Assembly: GCA_025617375.2 (NCBI GenBank)
Contig: JAMYGW020000004.1
Coordinates: 1,550,001 to 1,614,000 of the forward strand
Length of the DNA stretch: 64,000 bases
Source of the DNA: Acarospora socialis
Lineage: Eukaryota > Ascomycota > Lecanoromycetes > Acarosporales > Acarosporaceae
Direction of reading: 5' to 3'
The notes under the pieces were generated by a model that saw only the letters and a list, made by a program, of their open reading frames with translations, was not told the DNA's origin and ran no database searches. Position numbers and translations under genes: made by a program. Below, in pieces: positions 31,640-64,000 of the stretch. Every line of letters begins with the position of its first letter. Positions within the stretch are counted from its first letter, which is position 1.

Positions 31640-32110
31640 CCATAGAATCACAATCACACATGCAGATTTTGCACTGCAAATTCAGGATCTAATAGAACTT
31701 GAGAGTGTGTAGTAATTGCTCAACTTTTGTAGTGCATAGTCAAACAAGATTTTGAGGCTTTATGCTGATATATGAGAGTGTAATATATTTTGTAATTTTT
31801 GAATTGAAATTACAACATGTAATTTATTCTCAAAAATCTTCATCTGTCAAACCTCTGCATGTTGAGATCAATCTATAATATTGATACTTATCTATCTAGA
31901 TAAATTATGATGTTGATTGTTAAGAAAATTATTAAACTATGTATAGTTAAGTGACAGTATGAGTAAAACAGCACTAAGAAAAATACATAATTGATACTTT
32001 TCAGAGACAGATGCTATCAGTTAAAAACTTTGTCTTAATTTGTGCTGTTTAATTAACAATAATGTAAATATTCAATCTGTATAAGAATACTGTCACTTAA
32101 CTGTAAAAAG
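31640..32110. other. AT-rich stretch, no recognised element
   Basis: First 470 bp of the AT-rich block. I recognise no element or open frame here. Confidence 0.5.
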
Positions 32111-32302
32111 TAGTGTGACTGCACAGGTCAGTATTTTTGACTTGTTTGACTCAGAACTAAATCATTTTGTGACAATAAATTACACACTTTGGTAATTTAT
32201 GTTTAGGGCAATCAGAAAATGATAAATTACATGTAGTCTATGTAATTTATTTTTTTATTACAGAAAATACACAGATTAATACTGATCTGTATGATCACTC
32301 TA
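32111..32302. mobile_element. hAT-like MITE, copy 1 (192 bp)
   Basis: The termini are inverted: TAGTGTGACTGC on the left and, read from the other strand, TAGAGTGATCAT on the right. About 24 bp pair with mismatches, ending in GTCAGTATT on both arms. The body matches 56,181-56,372 nearly base for base and has exactly the same length. Flanking 8-mers do not match here, so any target duplication is lost. Confidence 0.75.
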
Positions 32303-32379
32303 TACTGAAGAAACAAGATCAATTGATATAAATAATAACATATTAGTTGTGTACTTAAGTCAGTCATCTAAGCAAGTCA

Positions 32380-33990
32380 CTTTACTGTTTGTTCTATTTA
32401 TTTTGTCATCATTGTTGTTATACATTCATCATGATCTCAGATCTATTCACTAAGTCAATTTCTGACATCTTTACTTGCTATATCTTAACTTTAACTGACT
32501 TAAACAATGATCTGTCAGTGTTTCTTTGTGAAATTGCTTAAATTTATGATTTATCTCAATTTACACTACAACATCATTAAAAAGAATGACAATCTGCAGA
32601 GATCTTTCATACACATCATCAATGACTGTTATTTCATGAGAAAAATGTTTCAATTAGATAAATTGATATTATAACAGTTTAAGAATAGTTTTCATGAATA
32701 AAGTAACTTAAAACTATAATAAAGCATCTTATGAAGATCAAAGAAGATCTGAAGTCTATAGAACAGCATTGATATAAGATTTTTCTGAAACAACATTCAG
32801 AATTTAAAAGTAAATATAGTAGAAATTTCAATCAGAACAGAAAGAATGCTGAAAATCTGAATTTTATTAAGAAATGATTTACTTTATACAACTTCACTTA
32901 AATTCAGTATGAAATAACTGATTATGACATTTACAACATGAACAAGAAAAAGTTTGCAATAAGCATTGCTAACAGTGTAAAAGTTCTAGTACAATGCTCT
33001 GAAGTACAGACTTTTAATATTTAGATTGATAATCAGAATTGAGTGTCTGTGATTGAGTATGTAAGATTCACTGATGATATTCTTTCATTCTACATTATTT
33101 TTCAGAATAAACAAATACAAAAAATCTGACTGAATTCTGTTCAGAATGAATGAATTACTTTATAGATTAATGACAATGAATGAACAACAAATGTAATAGA
33201 ATATCAGTGATTAAAGATCTTTGATCATCATATTCTATCTTAACTTCAAGATACACACTGACTTCTTTTACTGAACAGTCATGAAAGTTATGTCTTAATT
33301 AACTTTATTGAGTACTATTATGATCACAACATCATTGCTCTGTGTCTTTCTTCTTATTTGACACACTTATTACAATTTTTAAATATTGAAATCTTTGAAC
33401 TCTTGAGCAAGATCTACAAGAAATGTGTTTATACTCACTCACATTACAAAATTGTGACTATCAACAAGCTGAACTTTCTATTCTATTATCAGCAAGTTAA
33501 AATTGAAGAACTTTTCAAACAGAACATTCTCAGTGCATAATAATTCACTGATCTTGTTTCTTACAACTTTGACATCATTACTTTGAAACTTTCTCATTCA
33601 AAGACTTCTCTCTATATCACATTTACCAATAAGAATGAAGTTCAGATCAACATTTCTGTCATATTTTATACTGTTACTTGAATCAACAAGATTGTTGATG
33701 TCATTCTATCAGATATAACATCATTATTGCATGCATGTGTTTTAAATCTTAAGAACACAGTTCTGACAACTATTGCAGATAGAATAATTCTATAGTAAAC
33801 TAATCAAAAACTGCTGAATAAGCAGCAGCAGCAGTGATGAAAGAAGTAGTCATGAAAAACTATTGAAAAAGCTTAAGTTCTAACTGTCAACAAAGATAGA
33901 GCTATAGTGCAGAAGAAAAAAAATAAGAAGAAGAAAATGAATTAAAAGATAAAAAGATATCATGCATTGAGAAGTAAGATTGAATTTGCA
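32380..33990 (+). mobile_element. Fot1/pogo-like DNA transposon remnant
   Basis: An open segment at 33,358-33,540 (with THLLQFLNIEIFELLSKIYK and TINKLNFLFYYQQ) matches the C-terminal part of the DDE transposase of Fot1/pogo elements, where the usual pattern is THLLQPLDVG.F followed by an aromatic-rich helix. Sequence upstream from about 32,400 and downstream to about 33,990 has the same character but is full of stop codons, consistent with C-to-T mutation. No terminal inverted repeats were located, so the ends are approximate. Confidence 0.6.
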
Positions 33991-34278
33991 AAGTTAGTTT
34001 ACAAGAAATTGATTATGAAATACTCAGTCTTCATGTAATTAGTTATTTTAGACAACATCTAAGATGAGTGAATTAGACAATAGTGAGATGACTCACTTAG
34101 GTGACTGACTCAAGTACACAACTAATATATTATGATGAAGTAACACAACTGAATGCATTAAATGCATTATGAAAGTCAGTTATTATAAACTTCACTATGA
34201 AGCTATTATCAGTGAAGAACTCAGCATAAAAAATAAAATTCAACAATATATTAACAATAATAAACAAATTAATCAAGT

Positions 34279-34483
34279 TGTCAGAAGTGCAATACTCACA
34301 ATAAGAAGTTAAGTTCTCAGTAGAGATCTATTGAGCTCAATATCATATAGTATTTAGTATGTGAATTGAAGTTGTGACTATCAATATCAAGTGTATAAGT
34401 GTAAGTTAATTGTTATTCTACTCTAGCTACTGTGCAAAAGTTATATAAGATTTAAGCAAATAGACTAGAATATGATTATAACA
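34279..34483 (+). mobile_element. Solo LTR (205 bp) with perfect 5-bp target duplication
   Basis: Begins TGTCAGAAGTGC and ends GATTATAACA, so the ends are TG...CA. It is flanked by CAAGT at 34,274-34,278 and at 34,484-34,488. The same 205-bp unit occurs inverted at 36,676-36,880. No internal retroelement sequence accompanies it, as expected when two LTRs recombine and leave one. Confidence 0.85.
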
Positions 34484-34726
34484 CAAGTATATAATGTTTA
34501 TTTCATTCAAGAAAATCACATCAGCATTAATATTAATATACACTGTACTGCAAGAATTAATTAACAATTATAAACTATTTAAAAAAGTTTATCACTGATA
34601 GAAATATGCTGTTTATAAACAAATTTTAAAAATTATTCACAGCAGAACTTAAAATAAAGCATAAAATGTCAACAGTATATTATTCACAAACAGATAAACA
34701 GAATGAATAAATGAATCAGATAGTGC

Positions 34727-35015
34727 TAGGGTGGCTGTTGGGTTGGGTTGGGCCAGACATTCTTGACCTGACCCGTTGTGTAATAATGCGTAATTTTAAT
34801 TGTTTACAGTGTAATTTTGAAGATTATTTGTAATTTATGAAGCGCTCAAAAAACGCTACAAACTGACTCAAAAATCACAAAATCTCGATCGCTTTCAGTC
34901 TCAATGCACTGCTTTGAAGTTTTGAAATTTTTGATGGGGTAACTGCTATACTGGTCAGAACAGGCAGTAAAGGCAACCTCAAGGCACCACAACCACTGAC
35001 TTGGCAGCCACCCTA
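34727..35015. mobile_element. Unmutated hAT-type MITE (289 bp) with perfect 8-bp target duplication
   Basis: The perfect 11-bp terminal inverted repeat TAGGGTGGCTG/CAGCCACCCTA is flanked on both sides by GATAGTGC (34,719-34,726 and 35,016-35,023). The 8-bp duplication and the TAGGG terminus fit the hAT superfamily. Unlike everything around it, the element keeps CC, GG and CG words (for example GGGTTGGGCC, CTCGATCGC). It has no coding capacity. It must have arrived after the surrounding DNA was mutated, or been spared. Confidence 0.93.
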
Positions 35016-35105
35016 GATAGTGCAAATATACTTAAGATACTATGTCAATGAAAATTAAAATAATTAAGTATAACTATTGTCAATGACACAGTTTGCATAC
35101 AATAA

Positions 35106-35475
35106 TAGAGTGATCATCAAGATTTTTTGAAGTTGGTTTTTCACTTATTTCACATGACTTGTTAGTCATGCTTTGCCATAGTGACAAATACATCTCAATT
35201 TCTGCAAAATTTGAAAAAATTTTTGATCACATGCATTGAGCTTGAAAGCAATTCATTTTTTGTGATTTTTTTTTTGTTTTGTAAAGAATTGTGAAACCTT
35301 TCAAATGATGTAAAAATTATCAAAATTACTCTAAAAACAAAGAAAATTATTATAAATATGATCTGAGTTAATCTGACTCAACTTAGTTCTGTTGTTAAGT
35401 TGAGTCTGAATAGTTATTAGATAAACTGAGTCAGATTTTAAAATCTGAGTCTGACTCAACTCAACAGTCACTCTA
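35106..35475. mobile_element. Mutated hAT-like MITE (370 bp)
   Basis: Terminal inverted repeats TAGAGTGATC and (other strand) TAGAGTGACTG are flanked by TACAATAA and TATAATAA, an 8-bp duplication with one C/T difference. The right half holds an inverted pair of GACTCAACTCAAC-like words. It probably belongs to the same superfamily as the unmutated element just upstream; TAGAGTGACTG equals that TIR with one G-to-A change. Confidence 0.75.
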
Positions 35476-35483
35476 TATAATAA

Positions 35484-36640
35484 CACAAGAAATAAGATTA
35501 CAGAAGAAATATCTTTCTATATAAATTATGACTACAATTTAAAGATATAATAAGATTCACAAATACACAAATCATCAAAGTCAGAAAGCAATGCTGAATA
35601 TTGCTCAACTAAAAAAACTGTACTGAGATTTAACAAAATAAATTGAACAACAAATAAGATAAGCAACAAAGACAAAACTAATTGAAGAAAAAAAAAAATA
35701 TACTTAAAAATGAACAACATACATATCAGAGAAAAAAACAAAAAATAAAAAAATAAAAACATTGAATCTTTCAGAATCAAGAGAAACATCAAAGAATTAA
35801 GTTATGAATTAAACTTATTCAAAAAAATGAAAATACACTCAGTATTTCACACATTCATGCTACAACACTGCAATCAGTTTATATCACTTCAAATTATCAA
35901 AACATCTGTCAAACTCAATAAAGAATATAAAATCAAAAACATTTTAAAAAAGAGAATGATTAGAGAAAAAGTTCACTATTTTGTAAAATGAAAAGATTAT
36001 AATATCTTGAAAAAATACATGAAAATTTAAGCAAAATTTACTCAACTATGTGAGAACAGTTCAGCAGTTTGAGAAAAGAACTCAGAGTTGAGAAAGAAAT
36101 TAAAACTCATTGACTTCAGCAAAGAATCAAGATTGAAAGAATTGAAGACAGTTTTCTCATTTTTCATATCATTATTATTATCATTAAGCTCAAAAACAAC
36201 ACAACAAACTTTAACATCTGCTCAAAATGTTTTATCATCTTAAAAAAACAAAAAAATTTTACATTAAGCTGAGAGAACAGAGCAACTTGTTTGAAAAAAC
36301 ATTTAATTTACTTTTTACATTCATTCAGAGTCATCTCAAGCTGAAACTTAAACTAAAAATAAATACAGTTAACAAGTTCAGAAACATTAAAACACAAAAA
36401 TGATCATGATAGATACATTTGAAATACTTATTATAATTTGTTATAATAATACAAAAAACAAAATAACTATAACAATAATTACAGATGATAAAAGTCACAA
36501 GATCAAAAATCAATATGATCTTTGTAAAACAAAGATGATTTTGATGTTTCTAAAAAGATATGATAATGAAAACAATTAATGTGAACATACTCATTTATAT
36601 AAACTCTAGAGAACTAGCATCTGAAGAGTGAAAAATGATG
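35484..36640. other. AT-rich repeat DNA, no element assigned
   Basis: No ends, motifs or long frames allow assignment. A Lys/Glu-rich flavour on the plus strand near 35,900-36,150 may be the remains of a coding region; this is weak. Confidence 0.4.
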
Positions 36641-36675
36641 TTATGATTATATTTTGTAAGAAAAAAACTCATAAA

Positions 36676-36880
36676 TGTTATGATTATACTTTAGTCTATT
36701 CACTTAGACTCTATATAACTTTCACACATAGCTCAGAGTAGAATAACAACAGACTTACACATATACACTTGACTTAGATAGTCATAACTCTAACTTACAT
36801 ACTATTTACTATATGGCATTGAGCTCAATAGATCTCTACTGAGAACTTAACTTCTTATTGTGAGTATTGCACTTCTGACA
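36676..36880 (-). mobile_element. Solo LTR (205 bp), inverted copy, perfect 5-bp target duplication
   Basis: On the plus strand it starts TGTTATGATTATAC and ends CACTTCTGACA. It is flanked by ATAAA at 36,671-36,675 and 36,881-36,885. Read from the minus strand it matches the LTR at 34,279; the first 60 or so bases are identical and the rest diverges mainly by transitions. A partial extra copy of one end lies just upstream, near 36,630-36,660. Confidence 0.85.
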
Positions 36881-36889
36881 ATAAATTTA

Positions 36890-37980: not shown

Positions 37981-37984
37981 GATA

Positions 37985-39200
37985 GAATTGATCTCTATAA
38001 CTTATATTGATTATGATCAAAATAATTTATTTATGTTGACTGCAGTTAATTTCACCAGTATATGTTCACTAAATAAACAGTATAACACAAATATTCTTTA
38101 AATCTTGTTGAAATCATTGATGTTGTTGTTATTAAACTAAACACTGTGTGCATTTTCTATGTAATAAGACTCACTAAGTGAGAAGCTAAACTCAATTTTC
38201 AACACACTCTCTGAGTCTAAATGTCATCACTGTTGTTGCTGAAAGAGATAAAAAAGATAAAAAACAAACTAATAATAATCTTGTTAATATATCATCTATT
38301 AGTGTCTGTTCATCAGTATATTGTTTGTCAGTGTTATTTACTAGAATATATTTTTCAGCATCATTCATCACATCATTCACTAGTATCTGTTCACTGCATC
38401 ATTCACTGATCAAAAAGTATGTGTTACAGTTTTAATGAGACTTACATGAACTTTTGTAAGATGTCACTGTCTTAGTAAAACTTATGTGAACTTTTGAGTA
38501 TCTAAAAAGATCTTGACTGATGTGTTTGTTCTTATTCTGTTTTGTAACATTTTGTTGAGTTAAGAACAACAAGATTTGTTTTGTTTTGTAACTGTAATTA
38601 AGTTAAGAACAATGAAATTTATTCTGTTTTGTAACTGTAGATATGTCAAGAGCAGTAAGGCAGTGAGATGAAAGAATGTCAAAATATGTGTTACAGTCTT
38701 GACAAAACTTACATAAACTTTTGTAAAGAGAAGAATATCAACAATATATATGTCTGAATAGATCTTAACTTTGTGACTTTACTATGTAGAAACTTCTGTG
38801 TCTGACTGCAAAACTGTCATGTTTTTGCATCTAGAATAACAATAGCAAAATAGATAAAATGATAGTTAGAGCATCTTGTAGTCTTGAATGATAGAATTTA
38901 TTGTAGTTTATTAATGAAACAACAAACAAGCTAATTTTAATGTGAATTACACAGAATCTGAGCTCATAATCTGTTGAAATTGTTAATGTTGTTGTTATTA
39001 AACTAAACACTGTGTGCATTTTCTATGTAATAAGACTAACTAAGTGAGCAGCTAGACTCAATTTTCAACAAATCTTATTGAAAGAAATAGAATACTTGTG
39101 CTATATCATTTATCTAGTGAATATATATCATTAAAATTAACTGCAGTCAACTTGAATTGATTATTTAAACTATAATCAACATGTATAATATATTATTATT
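37985..39200. repeat. Palindromic repeat whose two arms flank the TRIM-like element
   Basis: The left arm (about 37,985-38,100) read from the minus strand and the right arm (about 39,076-39,200) read from the plus strand share the same order of words: AAGAATA.TTGTG, TTTAGTGAA, AAATTAACTGCAGTCAAC, ATAATCAA. The arms are about 115 bp. The 38,106-39,070 element sits exactly between them, so it landed in the loop of an older hairpin-like repeat. A single related arm lies at 42,075-42,170. Confidence 0.7.
38106..39070. mobile_element. TRIM-like non-coding LTR element (965 bp) with perfect target duplication
   Basis: Two direct 99-bp terminal repeats (38,106-38,204 and 38,972-39,070) begin TGTTGAAAT and end ATTTTCAACA, differing at about six positions. 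The element is flanked by AATCT at 38,101-38,105 and 39,071-39,075. The 767-bp interior shows no retroelement protein domain but has internal repeats of about 45 bp (TTCTGTTTTGTAAC... GTTAAGAACAA). Size and structure fit a terminal-repeat retrotransposon in miniature. Orientation is unresolved. Confidence 0.82.
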
Positions 39201-39216
39201 ATTATTATTATTATTA
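39190..39216. repeat. (TTA)n microsatellite
   Basis: About nine copies of a TTA/ATT triplet at the end of the right palindrome arm. Confidence 0.9.
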
Positions 39217-39449
39217 TCTTTACACTAAGCTAGCTGTGCTAAGTAGAACTTCTCTATAGTTTATATTTTAGAAAATCTTACAATAATGAAAATCTAAGCT
39301 TATAATGTTCTTTGTATGAAAGTAGATTAAATGTAAAGATTTAATTAATAAGACAAAAAAATGAATAGTTTCATCTTCAGTCATAAAGAACACTGATTAT
39401 AAATCAGAATTAATTTAAATGATTATTATACACAATTTATTTAACAGTC

Positions 39450-42050
39450 TCATGAGTCAGCTTCTTGACAAATAGTAATTGTATAAAGTTTTTTTTTTTC
39501 TTTCTTGAATAATAAGCAGCTGTGAATTTTTCTGTTTTCATAAATTAGCAGTATATATTGAGAAGTCTTGACTTTCTTGTTACATAAACAGTCAGTTGAA
39601 GAAATTTCAGTAATCTTAATCTTATGAAGAAAATAATTATAATTTATGTATCTTATACAAAATTAAATTAGTTCAAAACTTTTTGTCTTTCTCAGTCTCT
39701 GATGAAGTTGAAAAACTTTTTTGAAGAATAATTTGTAATTTAATTTCATCTTTTAATCTTCTTTCTCTGATCAGTGTTATATTATCTTTGAGTTTAAGTA
39801 TTTTGTACAATCTTCTCTAAACTGATTTCTTCAATCTGTTCTGCAAAGAAGTAAGTAACTGTTGCAGTTGTCATGAATTGATGAACTTTTTGCTTGATTT
39901 TTTTTCTGATAAGACTGCAGATTTTATTTTTCATCTTTATAAAGACTGTACTCTTTGTATAAACAGTATAGATTCACACTTTTTTATTCAGATATAAATT
40001 CAGAGAAGAGATGTAGATTTTAGTTTTTAAGATACTGATTGAAATGACTCAATAAGTATTGACAATTATATGAAGACATTTAAACTAAGAAATCTTAATT
40101 GCATAAGTAACTTTACATATCTAATGATTCTTGACAGATGTGTGTCAAATATATGTTTTATAAATTATTGCTGATCAAATAATGATTGTGTAGATCTGTC
40201 AGAATTATATGAAGAAAACTTTTTAAATAAATGTTATTATTCTAATCAGTACTTTTGTCTGTTTGATCATCTTGTTTTGAAGAATCTTGATATGTGTGAT
40301 TCATTTGAGTTTAAAATTAAATCATATTTTTAAAACTCTAACATTTGAAAAAAAACACAATTCATTATTCTGAATTCATACAGCTGTCTGCATGTTGAAT
40401 TTGATTTTAACTCTGTAGAATTGAATTATTTTGTATTTGTGTAAAGTAAATTTAACTTTATAATGTATAACTCAGCTTCTATATTTCTGATGAATTCTTT
40501 TCAGTTTGATATAATTAATCTCAGTGAACAGTTCATACAAAAGAATGTTGACATCATCAACAAAATTAATTGCTAAAATTTCTTCTTTTAATCTGTTACA
40601 TCACTTCAGTAAATCTGCATTGTAAAATAAAAAGAAAATAAATAATAAAAAAGAGTTCTGTAAAATTTCTGTCTTCATAGAAAAGTAGCTTGTTTCTTAT
40701 TCTTGTATGAATTAAGAAAATTGTTTGATTGTAAAGAAAATTCTGAATTTATTATATAACTCAATAAAATATTTATCTTTTTCACAAGTTGTTCAGAAGT
40801 TAAGTTAAATTCATTGTGTTAAAGATTTTTGTCATATTTATTGATAAAAAAATGACAACATATTTTTTACTATCTCATATTGTACAAATCTGACTTATCA
40901 ACAGATTCAGAACTGTTTCTGTAAATTATTCTGCTTTATATTTCATTTAACTTTTAAATAAAAAATTGTTCTCTTCTGCAGTTTACTTAATTTATATAAT
41001 TAACAAAGTTTTTATAAATTTTTTCACTGTGTTTAGCAGAGCAATTAATTTTCATAATTTAACTTTCTTATAAATTTACTTTTCTAACTTGCATATCACT
41101 ATTGTACATGTTTTCTTATATTTTTCAAAAAGAAAGCTGAGCTTTCAGCTTGTATTAATGAGATTGATTATTGTTTAAATAAACTTAAACTTCATTGCTT
41201 TAAAAAAGCAGTATGAGATGCTGTTTAATTCTGATATATTGTGAGATGTTTTTGTACAAAGTACTGTGATAATTTTTTCTGCATTGATTGAGTCAGAAAT
41301 GAATATAAATTGAGTGAAGATTTTCAAATTAATATAACTATCTTTCTATAAAGATCAAAGAACTTCTGTATTTGTGATATTCTGAAGATTGATTGTCATT
41401 TTAGAATAAAATCTTTTTTTAAAAATTTCTGCTTTCTTTTTCAGAGTGTGTGCTTCTTTATGTATCATACAAATTGAAAAAATAGTTGCTGCAGAGTTAG
41501 AATTTTCTTTTTTCATTTTAATTAAAACTCAAAGTTCATTTCTCTCTGCTGTCTTACTGATCACATTTTGAAAATGTATGATTTTTGCTTTTGCAATCAG
41601 ATTTTTCTTAATTTTGTCTTTTATCTTGACTAACATTCATACTTCTTTCATACAAAATCTTCAGACTTGTTATCTTGTTTTTTTTCTTGTTTAATTGTCT
41701 CTTTAATTGTATCTGTTCATCAGACTTCTTCTTTGTTTAAGAATTTGTATATAAGTACTGAGATATTGATTAATAACTCAATAAAGTTGACAAGATACTC
41801 TATATATTGTATGATTTCAGTTTTTATTAACAGATTTTAATTTATCTGAAGATGCTGAGTTTCAATCAGTATAATTTTTTAATTTATCTTCTTTCAGTAT
41901 CTCATCTTATTTTGATTAAGTTGTACAATTTTAAAATTAAATATCACTGAGATTAAAAGATGATCAGAATTATAATTTATACTCTTTATAATAAAATATT
42001 CTTTCAGTTAATCTGTAAGAATTCAGCTGACAAAGATTAAATTTATTGTG
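39450..42050 (-). mobile_element. Tad-like LINE (non-LTR retrotransposon) remnant
   Basis: On the minus strand, codons for FVDDVN lie at 40,547-40,564, the reverse-transcriptase catalytic box in the form used by fungal Tad-clade LINEs. Downstream come KRIHQ and, near 40,380-40,460, segments resembling the AP.KYE.IHF stretch that follows this box in that clade. Stop codons are frequent throughout. Upstream (higher coordinates to about 42,000) should be the endonuclease part and downstream (to about 39,500) RNase H, but I did not recognise their motifs. Ends are approximate. Confidence 0.6.
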
Positions 42051-42074
42051 CTTGTTAAATTTATTGTAAGATAT

Positions 42075-44899: not shown

Positions 44900-46440
44900 T
44901 TTTATTGCAACTTAAGCATTATTTAATTTCTCACAAGTTCTCAAATACTATACTCTATCATCTCATGTTTCATAGACTTCTAAATTCATTGAATATTGTG
45001 TAACAATTTGTAAAATGTTGACAAACAAAAAGTGTCAAATCAAGAAGACTGAATCAATATTTTTAACACATTTTTCTAATAAACTTCAAGCTGACTCTTC
45101 ACTTTCAGAAAGAGAATGATGAGAATGACAGCATTACAAATTGAATTTGAAAATGAAAAAAAAAAAAATTATGAAATTGATATACTCAAGAAATCAGATT
45201 AAGCAATAAAATCTGACTTCAGCACATCTCATAAATCAGAAAATAATTATTTAAAATACTGCAATATGAAATCAGATTGCATTTAATGCAAAAATTTGTT
45301 CTTTATGTTCAAATGTTGTAATTAAGTTTTCAAATACAATCAAAACATAAAGTTCTATACTTTTAAGAAGTTCAGAAAGAATAAAAAGTATATTAATGCT
45401 GATAAGAATATCAGAATGCAGATGAAGACTGATGTTATTGAAAATCTTAAGAAGTGATGATATAGAGCAAAATAAAGTAATATAATTTTACTATTTCATG
45501 CACAACACATACTGATGAAGTTAGCTGCATGACTTAAGAAAGAAATTCAATATATTAAACATAAAATTTAACTCAAAGCAGAGCTCAAAGATCTGAAGAA
45601 TGAGAAGAAACATTTTAAAATTGTTATAACAAACAAAAATATCAAGTCAAAAAAGAAAATCTTATCTTCAGATGTAAATAGCAAAGCATAATAATAAAAT
45701 AATATATTAAAACAATGCATTAAAACTAATATCTGCTTATAAATTCATTCATAACTTGAGAATCTGATGAGTTGAAATCTTAATTTGATCATTTGTTCAT
45801 GAAAAAGAATTGAGTATTTAGTGAGTCAACAAAGTCTTGAGATTGTGAGCAATTTTAATTCTCAAGCTTATATAAAACAATTTTGACAGCAGATCATAAA
45901 TCTGAAAAATATCAAGAATATAAATATTGAGTAAGTGTTTTAATGAAACTTTCTAACAAGCATAAACACTTACTGTCTTGTTCAGCTATACAATTTCAGC
46001 TTTAGTTATCATTAAGAATCTGATTGAACAAAACTTTGATTGTAATCTTAAAACTGTGAAGAGTATTTAAATTTTTTTATCAGATAATGAAATAAATAAT
46101 GAAGCTTTAAACAGTAAGAAGAATGATAATTGAATTATGAATTTAAACAAGAAGAAAAAGAAAAAGATTGAGTATTCAAATGATTTATCTTTGTATTTGT
46201 TTGATGAAGATGATGATGAGAGTTGTGAAATTTAATAAAGATGATGATGAGAGTTGTAAATTCAATGAAGATAATAATGAGAATTGTAAGTTCAATGAAG
46301 ATGATGAAAATCATAATGAAGATGATGATAAAGAGAATGATATTGATTAAACTGATAAATATAATTAAGATTATGTTACAGAGAGTGATGAAAAATATAT
46401 TGAACTTAATGTACATCACAGATCAGTATTTTTTTCTGTA
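44900..46440 (+). mobile_element. Unclassified gene-like remnant, copy 1
   Basis: Shares ordered similarity with 47,830-49,362, clearest at 45,740-45,960, including ATTTTGACAGCAGAT and a following GTAAGT...ACTTACT stretch that looks like an intron edge. After it comes an acidic repeat-coding stretch. I do not recognise the family. It is heavily decayed. Confidence 0.5.
46202..46330 (+). repeat. Minisatellite coding for acidic repeats
   Basis: Three to four tandem units of about 33-36 bp (GATGATGATGAGAGTTGTAA and variants) read DDDESCKFNE, DNNENCKFNE and DDENHNEDDD in one plus-strand frame. It lies inside the unclassified remnant. Confidence 0.75.
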
Positions 46441-47825
46441 AGTTCAGTGAACTTTTCTTTTTAACATATCATTTTAATACTTTATGTGTTTTTCAGCTGT
46501 CTAGAAGATCAGAAAAGCAAAAGTTGTTAATGTTAATTTTAATGAATTGAAAATGAAAAAATTAAAAGTCAATAAACTCAGTTTGCTTACTAGTGTCTAC
46601 AATTTCTTTAGATTTCAAGATAAACTTATTACTTTGCTGTGATAAAAGCATACTATGTAATATTTGAATTTGATCTCAAAGTTATTTCTTATTTGCAAAC
46701 TACAAACTTAACTACATCACATATTTTAATTTAATGTGTAAACTCTGATGAAGTAACATTATAAGATGAGAGTTGCTTGTAAAATCACTCAATTAAGATC
46801 ATATTCTTGACTTAAATCATAATACACTTAATATAAATAGCACAAAGATTGATATCTAGTAGTTATTAAAATTTTGTATTGAAGAAGTTTCAAATAATCA
46901 CATTATATTTTTCAAATATACTATCAAGAATTTCTTCACAGTCTTCTGCAACACTTATAAGACACTTATTTGTTAGTAAATATCTGAAATCTGTAACTGC
47001 TCATTGAAGAGACAAATTTGTTGAGTAACTCTTGAAAAAAAAAGTTTTGATATTAATAAATTGACAGTCTTCTAATATTGTCAAATTTCTTTCAGAGTGA
47101 TTATTAATTAAGAATATGTTAAATAAAACTGTTAGAATTAAAGAAGATCTCATGAAAATAATATATACTGTTCAGCTTAACATGTCTTTTGATGATTATC
47201 TTTGCTGACTGTTGTGCTGATTGTTGAGTTATTGTAGATTTTGATGTCTTTGATGACTACTTTTTTTTTGAAAGTGTAGCTGATAAAATATTTACTGATT
47301 GTGAATCTGATACAGATTGAATATTTGTTGTTTATAAATCTACAGTTATTTGAGTGTTCATTATATCTGATGCAGTGAATTTATACTTTGTGACTGTTTT
47401 GAGCTTAAGTGTAAAATTGAGCTTGAACTTGAGCACAGACTTGAACTTAATGAATATTTTCTTCTTTTTTCTTTTTAGCTTTTTAGACATCATCATTCTA
47501 GATGTTGACTGTTAAAACTGTACATTAAAAACAAAATATTTTGAACTTGTATCTGTTGCTTGATGTGTTGATGTGTGGTAGTGTTGTGATTTGTGATATA
47601 ATAATGTTATTGATGTAAAGTTGAGATTATATTGTTCTGTTTAACATTCACATTAATATATTGAGTGAATTTGATTGAAATAAACAAATATTGTAGTCAA
47701 ACAACAGTACATGCATGTATCTTTCATAATGATTCATCTTTCAAACAACAAACTCTTCAACAAATCAGTATCTTCTTTCAGCACAACAAAAATAATTTAA
47801 TACAAAAACTTGTGCATTAAAATAG
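46441..47825. other. AT-rich repeat DNA, no element assigned
   Basis: No recognisable ends, motifs or frames. Confidence 0.4.
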
Positions 47826-47829
47826 AGCA

Positions 47830-49362
47830 TTAAATTTAAGATGAATAAAAAGAAAGTTAAAATGACTGAAACTGCAAATAAATTAAACAAAAAATCATCA
47901 CTATTCTTTACTTCTGTTACTAAATTAAAACATAATTAATTAATTATTGATCAGATCTTGCAGCAGAAACATTCAATAAAGAAGAAATTTAAATTGAAGA
48001 ATTGACTGATATTATAACACTCTCTATATTCATAGTTTTGAACACATTTTTTTTAAATTCTTGAACATGTCACTGACTAATATACTGTATAGTCAGTTAA
48101 AGATTTTAATATTGCAGCAACAACAATTAGAATTTTGCAGAAATGCAAAGATTAATTATTTACATTAAGAATGTCAGAATAAAACATTGAGTTTAATATA
48201 AAATTAGTGTATAGAAGAAGCAAAATTATTTTTAATATTCATATATTATTGTTGCATACATCTATCAAAAAAATCTTTCTTCTAAATCTCAAGCTATTAA
48301 ACAAGCAAAAAAACATGATTGTAACATTAAGCATCATAAGATTCAGAAACTGAGAAGATTAATAAAATAATTTGAAATAAATCAAAATACACATGAAACA
48401 TTAAAAACAGATGCAGTAAAAACTTTAATGAAATCTTGTTTTCATAAAAAACAGAGTGATATGATAATCAGTTATTTAATTAAATGTTATTAACAGTCAG
48501 CAATGAAATGATTTAAAGAACAGATGAATCATACTGAAAATAAAAACAAAGTACAATAGAAACTTATCAATGCATTTTATGTTAAAGAAAACTTAAAGAT
48601 CACAGAAAAAATAAAAATAAAGTAGATACAGAAGATTGATGTGTTTAAAGAAATAAATAATTGATGATGTCTGTTAAAATTGAGTATTAGAATTAACTGA
48701 TATATATAGACTCATTTTTAAATTGATTAAGTTACAGCATAAAATCTTAATCTTTTCATTCAATGCTAAAAGCAAATTAAGTTCATGACTGAACAGCAAA
48801 ATTTTGAATTAGTTAAGAATTCTGATTCTTAAGTAAATATATAAGAATTTTGACAGCAGATTAAAAAATCAGTTAATATCAGAAATATAAAAGTAAAGTA
48901 AGTAATTTAATGATATATTTTAACAATATAAAGTACTTACTACTACACATAACTATGTTATTTCTGTCATCACTACTTCTACTATTTTTGAAGATGTTTG
49001 AACTGTAGATGTAATAATTTTTAATAATGTAAAATAAGTTACAACTGAAGATATGACAATCTTTTTGTCTGAAGATGAAAGTAAGAAGTTGTTTAACATT
49101 GAAAAGTTGAATAATTTTATAATCAATGATAAAAAAAAAGTCTCTAAGTGCTGCTAAGCTCTCTGATGATTTATTGCTAAATTTTAAGATTGAAAGTGAA
49201 AAAAAAATTAATATCAGTGATGAAAAAAATGAAACAAATGATGATTTAATGCAAATAAAATGTTCTTCATCACAAATGTATCTTAATTATTTACTGATAT
49301 TAGCAACAGAAGAACAATGTGAAATGATTTTATTGTGTAAATTTAATGTATATACATTTTGA
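47830..49362 (+). mobile_element. Unclassified gene-like remnant, copy 2
   Basis: Second copy of the family at 44,900-46,440; clearest at 48,690-48,945. It also ends in a Lys/Asp/Glu-rich open stretch (49,126-49,362). Family unknown. Confidence 0.5.
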
Positions 49363-52300
49363 CTTATTATTTACATCTTGTCATAACATGATGCTTAGTG
49401 TTGTACAATGAGTCAATAACAACAGCTTAGTGAGAAAACTATATTAATAACAATATTGCTACTGTAATTATTGAACTTTCTTTTCTTTTTAAAGTGTAAA
49501 CTTAAGCAATATATTACTTATACAATGCTGCACTTCAGTACTGAGTTTTCTTTCTACAAGATTCATCATGTATATTAATGAGAGAAATTCAAATGCATTA
49601 ATCAAAAATAAATGCAAAGATGACACAAGTTTATCATGAATTACATCATATATATTAAAAATAATTGTTAAAATTCTGCTTACAAACAAGATCATTTTCT
49701 GACTTATAATTCATTAAAGTCACTTTCTTTATCTAATCTGTTTTGAGAATTCTGTTGTATTGCTTTAAATTTTTGAAATATTATTGTTAATTTAATTAAA
49801 TTGAGCAGTTAATCTTACAGTATATTTAGCATTAATGAATATGTTTGAAAAAGAACAAATTCTCATAATGACTTAAAAAATAATTGATTTGCAGATGCTG
49901 AAACAGTAATAATAGAATTTGAGATAGTAGATTGATTAATATTTATGACTGTTGTAATGATAAAGAATTTAATATTGATTGATTAAATCTCTGATAATGA
50001 CTACATGATGATGACATTAATATTTGTATTGAACAAATCATCATTCTTTAAGTCAAAGTTTATTTTAATGTTTTTTTTTAATGTTTTATGTGTTTTCTCT
50101 TCATGAAAATTGCTCAGACATTTATTAGATGCATTATTATTGTCTGAGATGATAATGATAAATAAATACTCTTTATTCTTTAACAGTTCATCAGTTAATA
50201 ATACTTCAAAATTAAAATCATAAGCAGTATCAATCTTGCTGATTGTGTCTGAATTGACTGCATATTTATATGAGTGAAAATCATGATGCTTAATAAGCAT
50301 AATATGCTGAATTATCTCAGCATTGAGTTGATTTTGTTAGTAATGACACATATTGCAAATTATATTAAAAAAATACTCAATATTCACTTCTGCAACAGAT
50401 ATAGCAAGTATATTTTTGATAAATTGAATTATGACAAACTTAATTTTTTCTTATAATTTTCATTCATCTAGAATGTTAAGATCTTTCATAAATGCAGTTT
50501 GCAGTCATGTTGTAACTTTGAATGCAGTTATTTTCAGCATTTTCTCACTGAACTGCTATTATAGTCAAATGACAGATTCAAGACTAAGATGTGCAGTCTT
50601 GATTGTTGAAACATTTGAATGTGTAACTAATTGAATTTCAAATTATTGATAATATCTTTTGTGATATGATTTGAACTTACATTCATAATATTTTTAATAT
50701 TTCAGTTTTTATGCTGAACTCTTAATATTAAAGTGCTGTTAGTAACTGAACATTAAATTCAAGCATTAAAAAGAAGCTACACATCTGATAAATACTGAGT
50801 TTAATGTTTGAATTTAAAACACTATTAAGATTGTATAATGTGTTTTATTTATCAGTAGTCTTGTTATAATACTGAGAAAGCTTGTTTGTAACATCTTTAA
50901 TTGTATCATTTAATTGAGATGTAAATGACAATTCACAGATACTCACTTTTATTCATTGATCTTTAAGATGATCAAACAAATCATTGTAGACATATCATAT
51001 TTTGTTAATGATCAGTTCAGCAGTAAAATCAAGTATATTAATTAAAGTTTTAAATGACTTCAGAAGCTTAACAATGTATTTAATTTGTTTTCATTTTTTA
51101 TAAAAGATCTTCAGCATACTCATTAATTTGTTTTGAACAAAAATTTATTTTTTAAACTCATTTTTGTATTTAAGTGCTCACATTAACATATCATGAGTTG
51201 AGTTTCAGTGTGTTTTGACATCTTGAATTATCTCAACAACTTTGATAAAAGTCACATTTTGTAATTACTTGAACTACTTGAGTCTCTGAGAAATGCAATT
51301 GATGATAATAGTAAGTGTTTGAATCTGTAATAATTTTATTCAGTATGTTAAATATTTTTGTTAAAATAGAACATATCTTTTTCAATGTGTTATTAAACAA
51401 GATAGAATTTACTGATATAATAATGAGAATTGTAGAGTTAAAAATTTCAGTAATTTCTTCATTGAATATCTCTGTTTTGAGTTTCTTAAGCAGCTTGTTC
51501 ATTGTTAATTAAATAATGTATATTATACAATTCACTGTGTTTTTTTGATAGTCTCAATTCATGTTTTATCATTTCAGTAATTTACTAAGATGTTTATGAA
51601 AAATTTAATTATTGTATGCATTGTTTGCTATAATGACAGAAAGTTTTGTCTTTAACTTTCATGATTTAAAAACATCAATCACATAATTAATTAAGTTTTC
51701 ATCAGTATGCACTTCTTTTAGTCTCTTGAAGTTAAGAAGAACTTTATGATAATTTCAGTTTTCATTGATAAAATAATCAGTAATTTTTATAAAAACAAAA
51801 TTATTTGAACTGATTCAACAATTCAGAACTATGAAAACTTTAATTTGAGATTTAAGTTTTTCAAAAGTGAATACACACACTTTTTCATATTGTTTCTTCA
51901 AAAGATTTTCAATCTTTGTGCAGTCAGAAATTTTTGTATCTGAATAAAGCATCTCAATAAGTCTTTTAAAGTGAAAATGTTTTACTGATCAAAAAAATCA
52001 GTTGAGTACAAAAATGATTGTAAGCAGTTACTGCTTGAATACTTCAACTATAAATAATGATATCTTTGTAGAGATTGTAACAGAACTTTAGTGATATGAG
52101 TGTTAGAAATTAGCATTAAAAAAATGAAGTAATTGACTGATCTGTTTATCAAATGCTAAAATTAAATTATTTTGCTGTTTATCTTGCAGCTGCTGCACAC
52201 TTTAATATGTTTTATGATTCAGATGTCTTTTCATCAAACTAATTTCTTCATTTATTATAATGAAATATATCATCAGAATTTCACATCTTTTGTAGAACAT

Positions 52301-52835
52301 CTTGAGTTTTTCATTAATGACAGACACAATTAGTTCAAAGATGAATTATATTTTAAAAATTTATACAGTGTTATTTTACAAAAGTAATTTCTTTTGATTG
52401 ATTTCAGATAGATGCTTGATAGCTTAGTGTGTTGTTTTTCATTAATTTTAAAATTTTTCACTGATATCTGAATCATAATGTAAGAATTTTGCTTTTGAAG
52501 ATTGAATTAAACATATAAATGAAGTTGCTGTGTGAGAAAAACAAGTAATACTGTTGTGCATGAAATTTCAGCTTTTACTAAGCTTACTGAGTTACTAACT
52601 TAATTCAATCTCTTCTTCATATGATATAGAGCTCTGTGAAATCATAATTTCTTAAAATGTAAATATAAATATTACAGAATAATTATTCAACTAAATTATC
52701 ATATAATCTGATCAGAGTGATAGCATTTTAATAATTATTTTTAACACTACAAACACTAAATCAATCAAGCTAATTACAGTATTACTGATCAATAAAATGT
52801 AATATTTCATTGAGCTGACTCTTTAAGTTAATTAT
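49363..52835. other. AT-rich repeat DNA, mostly unassigned
   Basis: Several minus-strand open stretches (50,001-50,300 and 51,233-51,502) are polar but match nothing I recognise. They may be parts of the same unclassified family in opposite orientation. Confidence 0.35.
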
Positions 52836-52839
52836 TAAT

Positions 52840-54870
52840 TCTCTTTTACATAATCATCAATGTCAACTTCTTTTGTTTTCTCATTTTCATGCTTTCTTCA
52901 ACTAATTTTAATCTCATCTTTTTGTTTGCTTTTTCATTCACATCATTGTTAATGACTTCATCTTCATTGAGATTATCTTTCTGATATTTATCTTCACTGC
53001 TGAAACTTAAAATCAAAAAGTACAATATTTCAATCTCTGAAGTATCTGTCAAAGAATTAACAAGAAAATTGTTTACTGAGATTGTTCTGTTAGACTATTC
53101 ATCATTATTTAGTTTTATATGAATTTGTAATTTTACAATGACATTTTTTTTCTCTTTGTTCACTTGTTTTATGATAGATGACAAAACATAATTATAAACA
53201 TATCAGTTTTGTTGACACTGAGATCTGATGCATTAAAAAAATATATTAAAACAATATGATATGTGTCTGATTCTTACTCATGCTCTTTACACTCAATATG
53301 TTTTGAGTTTTCAATCTGCAATTGAAATCTTTTCATTGTCTTCTTTAAATTCTTATCTTCAACTGTTTTCAAGAATTTTTCTTTATACAAATTGATTATG
53401 TGTTCTTGATGCTTGATAATCACTGTGAAATTATTAACTTATATCTTTTCAAACTTGCTTATAATGTCTTCAGATTTAATTTGCAACAATATATTAATTT
53501 AGATGAAGTAAGAATCAGTATTGAAACAATTTTGTTGAATTCTTCAATTATTCATTAAACATAAACTTTCTTAAACAGAATTACACAATTTTCTTTCTTC
53601 TGAACTTCAGTCTGTCTCTGTAATTAATGTGTTTTAATTTTAATTTAATTAATAAGAAATTTCTTTATAAGCATATCAAAATATGAGTGTTAAAATCAAC
53701 TGTTAAAATTCAGAAATCATTTACTAAAAATGTTGAGATTATAATGTTCAGTTTTCAATGTATTGACAGTGTCATCTTTCAGAATTTTTTGCTGAGTCTT
53801 TGTTGCTGATTTTCAGTCATTGAATGCACATAATTTCTTTAAAACAATATGTTTTACATTTCAATCTGCTGTGTCTGCTCATTCAATTTGTCTTATTGTG
53901 AAATCATTGAATAATGCTTATTGTCACTTTTTAATCTGAATTGTTGCAGAATTTGTACTATACTCAAATGATGTTTTACTTAAAGTAAAATTTAAATTCA
54001 TCAATGAATGATCTCTTGTCTCAATAATACAACAATTTTACAGTCATTCTTCAATTAATGAGAAGTCTTCAACTTCAGAAAATAATGATGATGTAAAGTT
54101 TCTTTTAACTTGTTGCTTCTTTTTCTTTGCTGAGAATTTGAAACTAATATACTTTCATTTTGTCTGCTTAAATTGATGAGTCTTTGATAATGAGTTATGA
54201 GAACTTTATATTTTGTTCATTAATATAATAATTAAACTAACATTAAATTATTGCATTAAAACACATCTTTGCATCAATTTCTCTCATATTGTTGTTGTTC
54301 ATATCACTTTTATAAGAAGATGACTCAGTTTTATAACTATCAGTATGTCAACATCAATTCAGTTTTAAAATGATGTATTAAAACACATATTTGCATTGCT
54401 GCTCTTTTCAGCATTATTATTTTCATCATTGTTATTCTCAATAGTATTCTTCTCAACATTATTTCTCTCATTATCATCTTTCTCAGAATCATTCTTAACA
54501 ACATCATCAATGATAACAACACTTTTCATATTCAATCTCATCACAGTGTTCTTGAAAGATAACTCAAGCTGTAACAATAATCAGTATATCATCATTTAAG
54601 TGTTAAAACAAAACATTAAAACATACAATTACATTGCTTTCTGAGTTATCTGCTTCATCAATGAAATTATTGTGTTTTAATTGATCAGACATGAAGATCT
54701 TAAAGTGCAGTTGTGTATTAAGTATCTTGATTTTTGTCAGCACTAAGATCATTGTTAAAATTAATCATTAAACTATACACTGCTTGCATGTCTGAATTTA
54801 TGATGTCATCACTATTGATTTGAACTGATATAAATTGCAGAAGTGAAAAAATGATATGTAAACAAAGTTG
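52840..54870 (-). mobile_element. Unclassified remnant with several intron-like interruptions
   Basis: Minus-strand open stretches at 52,846-53,052 and 54,365-54,577 are acidic and Asn/Lys-rich. They are separated by segments with GTATGT or GTAAGA starts, TTTTAAT in the middle and CAG ends, repeated near 53,230-53,290, 54,240-54,300, 54,365-54,400 and 54,570-54,640. It includes the relative of 8,150-8,430. Multiple short introns are unusual for common transposons, so a decayed host-type gene family is possible. Confidence 0.45.
53775..54045 (-). repeat. Mutated relative of the segment at 8,150-8,430
   Basis: Aligns with the unmutated segment, for example TTTGTACTATACTCAAATGA here against TTTGTACTATACTCGGATGG there. 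In about 180 bp all 12 CpG sites and all CpC/GpG sites of the other copy are changed, against about a fifth of CpA/TpG sites. Confidence 0.8.
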
Positions 54871-55970
54871 AGAGAGAAGAAATGAGAGATGAGATGAATA
54901 AACTGTTGTTATTGTTTAATATTCACTGATCACATCTCAGATATAAACAGAACAGCATAATAAAATAATTACAATTATACAATTACAATCACAATCAAAA
55001 CAGACAGCATCATACAACATTGTTATTAAGACTATATCTATGATCAATTTTACAAGATTTTCATTGTACTCATCATAAAGTAAGTGAGCAATCATTCTTT
55101 TTAATGCTCAGTTCTAACAATTATATAATTTTGTGAGATGACATAAACAAAAGTTACATTCAAATCTATCAAGATACTGAAGAAATCTTCTATTATCTCA
55201 GTTCAGAAGAAGTTGAAGTATATTTAATATATTAAATCACTTATCAAATACAACAATGATGTTGAAGCATACAATCAACACAAAAAACAGATCAAAACAA
55301 AGAAAAAGAAGTTTCAAAAGTTTAAATTAATTAAATTAACTTTTGTTGTGAAGTCAGAAGATATGTCATAATTTATTTTTAATTTAATACTCAAATTTAA
55401 TACTCAAGATTTAAAGTGCATCATGCAAGAGATAAAACACTATTAAAAGTTCACAGCATCATTAATTTCAGCACATTCTTTTCAAAAACTCATCAAGAAA
55501 ATTGAGCAAAATTATGAGCAGAACTATAAATAATAACAAAATACAGTTAATACATTGTAAAAGATTACAGAGACATATATTGTTACATTTTTTGAGAGTA
55601 TGCAATCAAGATATTATACATCAAATCTCAACTGACATCAAGTTCAGATATCAATCTGATCTGTATTTATATTAATTGTGTCATGATACAGATGAAGAAT
55701 ATGAAATTAATTAAAACATATATGATTAAGTAAAGTTTATATGTTAAGCAATACTTAGTTTTACAACAGTAATGCTATCAGTAGATTATCTGTAGCTAGA
55801 TAATGAAGATTATGTGTACTCTTTGTTTAAGACTTTTTTCTAACATATCTTTTTAACACATTTTTCTAACACATCACTCAAACAATTATGATTCTATGCA
55901 CAACTATAACTAAGTAATATAGAGTCTTAATAATTAATCTTTTAACAAATATAGAACTAGTGCAGAATTA
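54871..55970. other. AT-rich repeat DNA, no element assigned
   Basis: A Lys/Gln-rich plus-strand flavour near 55,250-55,400 hints at former coding sequence. No assignment. Confidence 0.35.
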
Positions 55971-55974
55971 TCAA

Positions 55975-56100
55975 GAAAAATTTAACTTAACTCTGATCTG
56001 ATTTGCAGATCAGATCAGATTAGAATTTTGAGTTTAACTTAACTTATAAATTAAATCAAATCAAAGATTTTTGATCTGATCTGACTCAATGATTACTTTA
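55975..56100. repeat. Palindromic AT-rich repeat
   Basis: Centre at about 56,010 with CTGATCTGATTTGCAGATCA and a second inverted pair of AACTTAACT words. Similar to 43,985-44,125; probably a MITE fragment. Confidence 0.45.
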
Positions 56101-56180
56101 GTTTTCACTCAGAAAAACTGCAATCAAAGATTTATTCTCATGAAGAAATGACTGATAAATAAAGATCTATGATTCATTTT

Positions 56181-56372: not shown

Positions 56373-56484
56373 TTCATTATCAAGATCTTTACAGTTAACA
56401 TATTTGTCAGCAACTTCTTCTTTTCTTTAAATAATCTTAACTTTAAAAGTTAGAAAACTGATGTCAAAACTTTGTACTAACTTA

Positions 56485-61748: not shown

Positions 61749-61753
61749 ACTTA

Positions 61754-63356
61754 TTATTTATATTAGTATAAATGATCAAGAATATTTAACAGATAAAATA
61801 AATATAAAGAAAGTTTGAGATACTCTGAGATTCAAGTACAAGAAGAAGCTGCAGATTATTGAAAAATAATATTTGATGAAGTTTGTTAAATATAAGATGT
61901 CAGTGAACATATTTATTAATGAAATGTGAATTCATCTTAGTAAACTCAACAGAAAGATTGCTACAACTTAGTCTGATATAACTAATTTATTCAAACTGAA
62001 GTAGCAATTTTAGATATTACTTCAGACACTGTTAAAAAACTATATAGTGATTTGTGACACAATTAACATTCAAAATATCTCAAATGTCAAAAGAAATCTA
62101 CAGAAACTTCAAAAGAAAAAAACACAACTAAAAACTGCAAAGACTGTTATGTGAACAGATCAATATAAAGAATAATGAAATTTAACACACTTATATATTT
62201 ATGATGTGAGATATCATTATTGAAGATCTTTAAGCTCTGATGACAGTTGTTTTCTTTATTAAAAGTAATTTAAGTGTTTTTTATGCAGTAACACTCATCA
62301 TATATAAGACTGCAAATATCTTTTTACTGTTCACAAGTATGAGACTAGTCTTGACAGCTACATGACTGTAAACTTCATAGATTGAGATGCATAAATAGAA
62401 TTGTCACTAGTTTTTACAAAAAAAAAAGTGTGTTCTTTTATTTCTTTGCAAAGACTGACTTACTAAGCATACTAATTATGCAAGATCTTGCAAGAGAGTT
62501 CTAGCTCTTCACAAATCAAAGTGAGCTTACAACAAGATCATTGAGTAAAGAAGTTACTGACTTAATCATGATTAAGTCATTTATGAAGTCAGATAAGTTG
62601 ACTGCAGTTATGTCACATTATAATAAGTCAAGATTTAAGTTCAAATGCAAGAAAAACAAACATAAAACTTTTGATACTGAGATCAAGAAAGACAGCAATT
62701 TATTATTATTGAAATCTGAAGTGAAGAAGAAAATTAATGATGAGATTACTGTTTTATTTAAAGAAACTGTTCATAAGATGTTCAATTTTAAATAAGTTGT
62801 TGATTTTAAATCTTTATTATACATAATTAATTAACTTTAACTCTTCAGTGACTCTTTAATATGCATAAGATGTTGATGAATTAAAGTTGAAAAAAAAGAA
62901 CTACACTTTTATTACTGTGAAGTAACAGTCATATAAAATAAATTGAAAAACTTTGTTGATCTAAGTTTCACACTTTATATATCTAAGCTTGAAGTCAATC
63001 TTCTGTCAGAAAAATGAATGTGTAAAATGAAGTTGTATAATCATTTTGATTAATACAGTCTCTATATGTAAAATAAGTATGATAGAATTATGACAAAAAG
63101 TGTTTGAGTAAAAAGATGTTTATATAGTTAAACACATTGCAAAGAATCTAAATGAATTCATTTTAATGTCTGTTATACATGTAATGTTTTCACAAAAGAT
63201 TTCTCTTGTATTAGAACTAAGAGTTTTGACTTATTGATATAAAGATTCTCAGACACAGTTGTCAAGTATAATTCTTAGATTGTTATTTAAGTTGTACATG
63301 ATTATTTTCATAGAAAAAACAATTCTACTATATACTAGAAACTTAATGTTCTTATA
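61754..63356. other. AT-rich repeat DNA, no element assigned
   Basis: A Lys-rich open stretch at 62,541-62,795 has no recognised motif. No element ends were seen. Confidence 0.4.
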
Positions 63357-63472
63357 TGTTGAGTTGATCTTTCAATTAATCAATTCATTAAGTTGATTAC
63401 TCAATCTGTTGAGTTATCAAGCCATTATGTAACTTGTTCTTGACAAGCAAACTGTCAAACACTCACTCAACA
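63357..63472. mobile_element. LTR-like unit (116 bp)
   Basis: Begins TGTTGAGT and ends ACTCAACA, a perfect eight-base inverted terminus of TG...CA type. Flanking bases TATA and TACA agree except for one C/T difference. It may be a solo LTR or one end of an element that continues past the window. Confidence 0.45.
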
Positions 63473-64000
63473 TACAAGTCAATCTGCATCTTATCTCTCT
63501 GAGTATAACTATAACAATATACACTTCATTTGATTCAGAAAATTGTTTTTTCAGTTACAGTGAATATAAATTCACAAATTGTTCAAGATAACTGCTGTCA
63601 ACTTCAATATTAAGTTAATTACAATTAATATGAGTCACAAGACAATAAGATTAAAATCTACAAACTGTAACATCAGTAATTTGTTCATCTCAGTTCTGCA
63701 AAGCTCTGCAATCTTTATAAAATTATAATTTTTGAAAAGTTAATTTTCATTATTGAGAACAAAAAAAACATATGTAAAATCTGTGTCATTATTAAGTTTG
63801 TTAATCAGTGAAAACATATTGTGAATGAGTAAAAGATCAATATTCTTACTTTAATTTTCATTAATATATGTGATTCTCTGCTCTTGTCATTTACTGAATA
63901 TTAGTATTTTTTGAAAATTGTAAACAATTACTCATAAAAGATATAAACAATACTGCTGAAACAACATAACAGTGTTTTACAGAAACTGCAAGAGTAATAA
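63473..64000. other. AT-rich repeat DNA at window edge
   Basis: Nothing recognised; the AT-rich block continues past the end. Confidence 0.45.

Follow-up and report, generated by a model that had tools for sequence, protein, structure and literature searches.

In repeat-induced point mutation (RIP) of Neurospora crassa the target dinucleotides follow the order CpA>CpT>CpG>CpC, and for Trichoderma reesei an order with CpC last was reported (PMC5496416, PMC10170752). A review on Coccidioides stated in one sentence that repeat-induced mutation occurs there especially at CpG and CpC (PMC9409882). The present analysis concerns a stretch of 64,000 nucleotides of Acarospora socialis DNA (the window), positions 1,550,001 to 1,614,000 of contig C4 (JAMYGW020000004.1) in a genome assembly of 31.1 Mb and 38 contigs, and an AT-rich block within it that has lost nearly all CpG and CpC. 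The block is very probably a pile of repeats, including transposon remnants, in which a C-to-T mutator of RIP type that is directed at repeats has come close to saturation; the process would be meiotic RIP by a RID-type enzyme, perhaps with DIM-2, and a long interspersed nuclear element (LINE) would persist having lost most of the targets whose removal leaves its protein unchanged.

The locus resembles N. crassa RIP in the C>T changes on both strands of repeats, the AT-rich transposon relics, the RID-like and DIM-2-like genes and the sparing of gene-bearing DNA. The order found here (CpG>CpC>>CpT, CpA) is however nearly reversed, and the RIP indices have the opposite sign. The raised CpG preference is shared with T. 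reesei, in which CpC is the least favoured. Coccidioides is alike in that its repeats are affected at CpG and CpC, a comparison made with a review statement given without rates. CpG is also a target in Microbotryum, Tuber, Rhizoctonia and Aspergillus (in the last together with CpA), but CpC is not named as favoured for Microbotryum, Tuber and Aspergillus in the consulted sections. For Rhizoctonia solani the authors stressed CpG, and their table gave one CpC change per 214 bp and one CpG change per 370 bp, uncorrected for the number of sites (PMC4014442); unlike here, genes were mutated there too. Signatures at CpA, CpT and CpG were described in ten genomes (PMC4352252), and a survey in PLoS Biology that covered 1,239 species concluded that the CpA preference is common to RIP-like defences (PMC12543289). 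A literature search for fungal RIP with CpG and CpC, or for CpC to TpC, returned no paper, which is a weak negative as PMC9409882, holding the pair, was missed by it. A preliminary description of this DNA had read the block as RIP-like and its CpC targeting together with CpG as unusual. RIP-like C>T mutation of repeats with preference for C before G or C was upheld, as was the departure from the N. crassa order; the pair itself has a precedent in the Coccidioides review.

Dinucleotide composition of the window

The dinucleotides of the block and its flank were counted. The gene flank and the block are as follows.

29832-31347, plus strand: gene flank holding the complex I 49-kDa subunit, dinucleotides normal (dinucleotide counts); ends about 300 bp short of the block
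31642-64000, no strand: AT-rich block with 0 CpG and almost no CpC/GpG, apart from a miniature inverted-repeat transposable element (MITE), running past the window end (dinucleotide counts, sampling beyond the window)

The left edge of the block lies at about 31641. For 31640-64000 the GC content was 25%, and the observed/expected ratio was 0.01 for CG (n=6), 0.04 for CC (n=19) and 0.06 for GG (n=31), compared to 1.45 for CA (n=2270), 1.52 for TG (n=2236) and 1.08 for the GC dinucleotide (n=545). The flank (1-31639) was ordinary, having a GC content of 51% and ratios of 0.89 for CG, 0.94 for CC and 1.07 for CA. All six CG and 27 of the 50 CC+GG of the block fell inside a single 289-bp transposon, the MITE at 34727-35015. 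Without it 0 CG and 23 CC/GG were left in about 32.07 kb, and 36001-64000 held 0 CG. The counts agree with the preliminary description, which had noted the near absence of CpG, CpC and GpG and the abundance of CpA and TpG. The high CpA ratio is partly raised by arithmetic, because only A or T can follow a C when C and G are barred from that place. The claim that CpA is kept therein holds for the CA ratio but needs correction for the process, as CpA is disfavoured rather than spared, about 0.19 per site being mutated in saturated copies.

In 36001-64000, CAG/CTG occurred at 1.43 times and CTA/TAG at 0.60 times the first-order expectation; a CCG whose second C mutates first would yield CTG. Rfam gave no match in the window at the gathering score, and ARAGORN found no tRNA in it.

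The RIP indices of the block were 0.80 for TpA/ApT, 1.42 for the substrate index (CpA+TpG)/(ApC+GpT) and -0.62 for the composite index, all outside the canonical RIP range at cut-offs of 1.1, 0.75 and 0, respectively (PMC6714961). The composite index was negative in all 20 repeat-derived loci (-0.52 to -0.95), two of which are copies of the window itself and some of which include normal flanks; that of the gene flank was also negative (-0.38). Fungi with a CpG/CpC preference could be scored as RIP-free, since surveys rely on CpA-based indices.

Repeats making up the block

All five block stretches used as queries matched elsewhere in the same genome. The repeats and transposons of the block are listed below; except where a strand is given, none is assigned.

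31562-31850: short dispersed repeat across the left block edge, first ~80 bp unmutated, best other match 74% identity (genome match)
33000-34127: dispersed repeat with copies on C8, C1, C7, C13 and others (genome match)
34485-34749, plus strand: gypsy-like retrotransposon polyprotein remnant left of the MITE, the alignment overrunning the MITE edge (tblastn with read-through of locus L015, E 8e-19)
34719-34726: 8-bp target-site duplication left of the MITE, GATAGTGC (read from sequence)
34727-35015: little-mutated 289-bp MITE with terminal inverted repeats TAGGGTGGCTG / CAGCCACCCTA (read from sequence)
35016-35023: 8-bp target-site duplication right of the MITE, GATAGTGC (read from sequence)
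35020-35574, plus strand: gypsy-like polyprotein remnant continued right of the MITE (tblastn with read-through of L015, E 9e-5 and 2e-4)
38106-39070: dispersed repeat, several copies (genome match)
39191-40000: dispersed repeat, copies in tens (genome match)
46000-50000: 4-kb repeat, 6 other copies across the full query and 1 across most of it (genome match)
51000-56000: 5-kb repeat, other contigs carrying 6 or more near-complete copies (genome match)

The terminal inverted repeat of the MITE is 11 bp long, and its target duplication is perfect over 8 bp, a length which we take to suggest the hAT superfamily. Its interior holds 6 CG and 27 CC+GG, compared to 0 and 4 in 1520 bp of flanks. CpG and CpC were kept in the MITE and lost around it, and therefore it was inserted after its surroundings had been mutated. 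The outer 80 bp of the edge repeat (31562-31641) were without mutation despite copies elsewhere.

Sequence context of C>T changes in the LINE family

The context of C>T changes was read from a LINE family of the same genome. For this, 19 loci with a reverse transcriptase match (L016-L034) were aligned in a single orientation and C>T was scored against the column majority. These loci lie on C1, C4, C5, C6, C8, C10 and C14, many being clustered at C1:2.65-2.80 Mb, C10 and C14. The C>T cells of the alignment numbered 258/3693 for CpC, 23/262 for CpG, 118/12109 for CpA and 97/9296 for CpT, of which L028, being partly another sequence, contributed 60 CpA and 47 CpT changes. L028 was rejected as an independent LINE lineage, as its reverse transcriptase part was 99.7% identical, against 83% for the locus as a whole.

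A young set of 12 near-identical copies was obtained by leaving out L024, L028, L029 and L031-L034 after their divergence had been seen. Its distinct C>T sites were 46/195 for CpC and 3/14 for CpG, compared to 2/639 for CpA and 2/491 for CpT (CpC+CpG against CpA+CpT, p=2.8e-37), and the C>T rate per CpC site was about 75 times that per CpA site. CpA as main target, as in the canonical RIP of Neurospora and Leptosphaeria, was therefore not found. Comparison of 16 LINE reverse transcriptase fragments (13 new and 3 from the 19) with the copy L017 gave 157/627 for CpC, 13/62 for CpG, 26/2096 for CpA and 11/1447 for CpT, that is an about 20-fold excess per CpC site over CpA. CpT and CpA were thus mutated about 20 to 75 times slower than CpC in the LINE comparisons. 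L081, an unrelated element of 45% identity, was left out of this pooled table. This locus (C16:102,853-103,620) has a reverse transcriptase with low GC and a CpC observed/expected ratio of 1.58, unlike the other aligned repeats, and is perhaps an organelle or intron element.

The preceding base mattered little in the 19 loci, the C>T frequency being 1.5-2.1% overall and, for CpC, ranging from 5.1% with a preceding A to 8.8% with a preceding T. The triplets CCA (27/2217) and CCT (11/948) were at background and ACC (77/1514), GCC (46/529) and TCC (100/1139) were raised. A C standing between C and A or between C and T thus changes no more than background, and it is the 5' C of CpC that is mutated. 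Copies with at least 99.5% identity already carry C>T mutations, which indicates that the mutator was recently active.

Codon usage of the LINE family

A single open frame of the copy L017 encodes the domains for endonuclease, reverse transcriptase and RNase H, and 15 of the 16 loci L016-L031 have 576-1329 stop-free codons in the matched part, the sixteenth having 380. L017 has a GC content of about 0.36 and observed/expected ratios of 0.05 for CpG and 0.80 for CpC. The family is nearly CpG-free and retains CpC mainly where the protein requires it. Among the 1251 codons of L017 there were 0 NCG codons, and arginine was AGA in 39/45 cases. At third positions the share of C among C+T was 107/211 before A (51%), 49/131 before T (37%), 9/106 before C (8.5%) and 2/123 before G (1.6%); the synonymous sites reproduce the mutator's order of preference. 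Codon shuffling gave an expectation of 36.0 CpC across codon boundaries (sd 4.4), compared to 9 observed, and of 38.3 GpG (sd 3.5), compared to 30. GpG is only weakly reduced because changing its second G alters the first base of the next codon, which is rarely silent.

Silent sites made up 14/190 of the CpC-type targets remaining in the LINE, compared to 253/983 (p=2e-9) in four frames of the host. Targets at CpA and CpT show the same tendency to a lesser extent (odds 0.63 and 0.55, against 0.23 for the CpC type), and the 12 CpG targets left were too few for this comparison. Of the 53 distinct C>T changes seen among young copies, 50 alter or stop the protein, which would be expected after loss of the silent targets. 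These data point to long purifying selection of the LINE under the same mutator. It is tentatively proposed, at slightly under an even chance, that the LINE has been recoded by RIP: with an open multi-domain frame and most synonymously removable targets lost, its codon choices would be a fossil record of the mutator's specificity and would allow self-copying in the presence of an active CpG/CpC mutator to which other elements succumb. This concerns one family in one genome, and a general AT bias contributes. The copies are still mutated at CpC, one of them at 23/40 sites, and the LINE is hardened, not immune. If true, the LINE would be a case of a transposon whose codons have adapted to a defence by mutation.

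Context of mutation in the MITE, gypsy and 4-kb families

For these families CpG was counted on both strands, with 0.5 corresponding to saturation. The window MITE had 10 genome matches including itself: L007, L008, L009 and L011 were heavily mutated, L006, L010 and the window copy were little mutated and L012-L014 were truncated or diverged. With L006 as reference, L007 showed changes at 15/23 CpC, 6/12 CpG, 1/43 CpA and 0/28 CpT, along with 2 T>C and 0 transversions. The four mutated copies pooled gave 66/92 for CpC, 25/48 for CpG, 14/172 for CpA and 13/112 for CpT. The idea that short MITEs escape the mutator was rejected, as 4/10 matches are heavily mutated; these match over 211-265 bp and lie inside larger mutated stretches. 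In the truncated copy L012 (C12:1,437,469-1,437,752) the MITE joins TTAGGG repeats directly, close to the end of the contig, which looks like telomere addition within the element.

For the gypsy reverse transcriptase, the two least mutated fragments were compared with eight others. The changes per site were 0.45-0.77 for CpC, 0.38-0.53 for CpG, 0.10-0.24 for CpA and 0.18-0.35 for CpT; each pair also had 25-41 T>C and 24-48 transversions, so the copies have diverged as well. The in-frame stops of the eight mutated copies were 22 TGA and 1 TAA. CpG goes before CpC, because all eight mutated copies have 0 CpG left and still keep a part of their CpC.

The 4-kb family had 0 CpG and at most 1 CpC at each of 7 other loci, the six best copies being about 7 kb each. 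It has no little-mutated copy, and the contexts are therefore not directly readable. Three pairs among the six copies showed 440-469 transitions against 6-9 transversions, and two pairs with the window copy showed 565:61 and 625:67. C before an unchanging A was mutated at about 0.19 per site and C before T at about 0.23 in the six copies.

C:G to T:A transitions thus predominate in repeated DNA (LINE, MITE and 4-kb family), and CpG and CpC are the affected dinucleotides (LINE, gypsy and MITE). The preferred target named in the preliminary description, C followed by G or C, was borne out by the alignments of the young LINE copies, with which MITE and gypsy agree. When C-to-T was tabulated by the next base against less mutated copies, CpG/CpC stood above CpA in all three families, CpA/TpG not being equally depleted. 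Decay by methylation of CpG only (Masc2-type, basidiomycetes) was rejected, as CpC is mutated in all three.

DNA methyltransferase genes

A methyltransferase-domain search of the genome gave 4 matches at 3 places. L001 is DIM-2-like; its best match among solved structures was 9bap (E 1e-191), listed as DNA cytosine methyltransferase, which we take to be Neurospora DIM-2, and its BAH stretch scored slightly under the family cut-off. L002/L004 carries the methyltransferase domain in two pieces with a frame break between them, taken as an intron. We call it RID-like from its motifs; none of the 36 solved chains that it matched was named RID. In L003 only the methyltransferase part was matched, and DNMT5-like is our presumptive name for it from its motifs. 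Putative RID-like, DIM-2-like and DNMT5-like genes are present in the genome, among them both types suggested by the preliminary description.

Proposed mechanism and alternatives

The mutator affects dispersed repeats, with sharp edges, and not the sampled gene-bearing DNA, and makes mostly C>T changes on either strand. As judged from the sequence, RIP with a shifted preference is the most likely explanation. Repeats would first be recognised, as the confinement to them suggests, during meiotic RIP. RIP in general operates premeiotically within the sexual cycle. C before G or C would then be modified and converted to T; the base change and its context are observed, and the chemistry is presumed. 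Over repeated passages CpG would be lost first and CpC next, followed by slow loss of CpT and CpA, as copies at different stages suggest. A RID-type methyltransferase would act, perhaps with DIM-2, its DNA-recognition part preferring G or C after the target. By judgement, a RID-like enzyme alone has about an even chance of being responsible, a RID-like enzyme working with or through DIM-2 may be so with a clearly smaller one, and some other enzyme would be unlikely. A genome with a near-reversed order offers a natural contrast for locating what sets the dinucleotide preference in RID or DIM-2.

Several points weigh against this explanation. The evidence is the genome sequence of one strain. 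The sparing of non-repeated DNA is judged from the gene flank and 11 normal sampled pieces, which were taken as single-copy. Strand runs are a feature of single RIP passes, and no consistent ones were found in the young LINE copies, each of which has few changes. Some mutated LINE sites are common to several copies, so a part of the counted cells may go back to one event. Mutation also reaches CpA and CpT, although slowly, as the old saturated copies show. The mutated MITE copies match over 211-265 bp, which is below the duplicate-length limit quoted for N. crassa, 400 bp; either the limit differs here, or these copies were mutated within larger repeats.

The strongest rival, possible but rather improbable, is that two processes overlap: CpG would be lost from transposons through methylation by a DNMT5-like enzyme or DIM-2 with slow deamination, and CpC through RIP. 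It is favoured by the gypsy copies in which CpG is fully gone and CpC partly kept, by a LINE lineage without CpG but with CpC, and by the presumptive DNMT5-like gene. A review also links DNMT5 to CG methylation. Coding constraint alone explains the LINE, however, as CpG is removable synonymously and proline, glycine and tryptophan codons must hold CC or GG. Further, both contexts are mutated together in the youngest LINE copies, although at only 3 CpG sites.

General cytosine methylation and deamination of heterochromatin, without recognition of homology, is unlikely. It would fit one continuous state over at least 40 kb. Against it stand the near-total saturation and the transition excess, which was about 50-77:1 in three of the five 4-kb pairs and about 9:1 in the other two, those involving the window copy. 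To our knowledge CpC is not a common methylation target. The little-mutated MITE within the block also argues against it, though youth alone could account for that MITE.

Compositional accident, foreign AT-rich DNA or sequencing artefact is very improbable: some of the C/T differences between young copies could stem from miscalled modified C, but accident was rejected on the GpC ratio of 1.08 against 0.04 for CpC, dispersed repeats elsewhere in this genome match the block, and the same spectrum recurs in three families (LINE, gypsy and MITE). A deaminase like APOBEC3G, working on CC in single-stranded intermediates, has next to no probability and was rejected, since APOBEC3G targets CC but deaminates the 3' C, whereas here the 5' C changes with CCA and CCT at background, CpG is mutated too and a DNA transposon family (MITE) is affected.

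Extent of the mutated state in the genome

The mutated state persists through 8 kb past the window. It was found in 9 of 20 sampled 1-kb pieces, the other 11 being normal. Beside the block (C4:1.63-1.75 Mb) 7 of 10 pieces were mutated, compared to 2 of 10 elsewhere. All six pieces sampled in C4:1,630,001-1,681,000 were mutated, the piece at 1,690,001 was normal and that at 1,700,001 was mutated again. The mutated region on C4 could be a centromere or another heterochromatic region. The ribosomal DNA at L048 (C18) and L049 (C28) showed 98.7% identity in a 2190-bp alignment containing 3 mismatches and 25 gaps, and these loci are either free of C>T decay or assembly variants.

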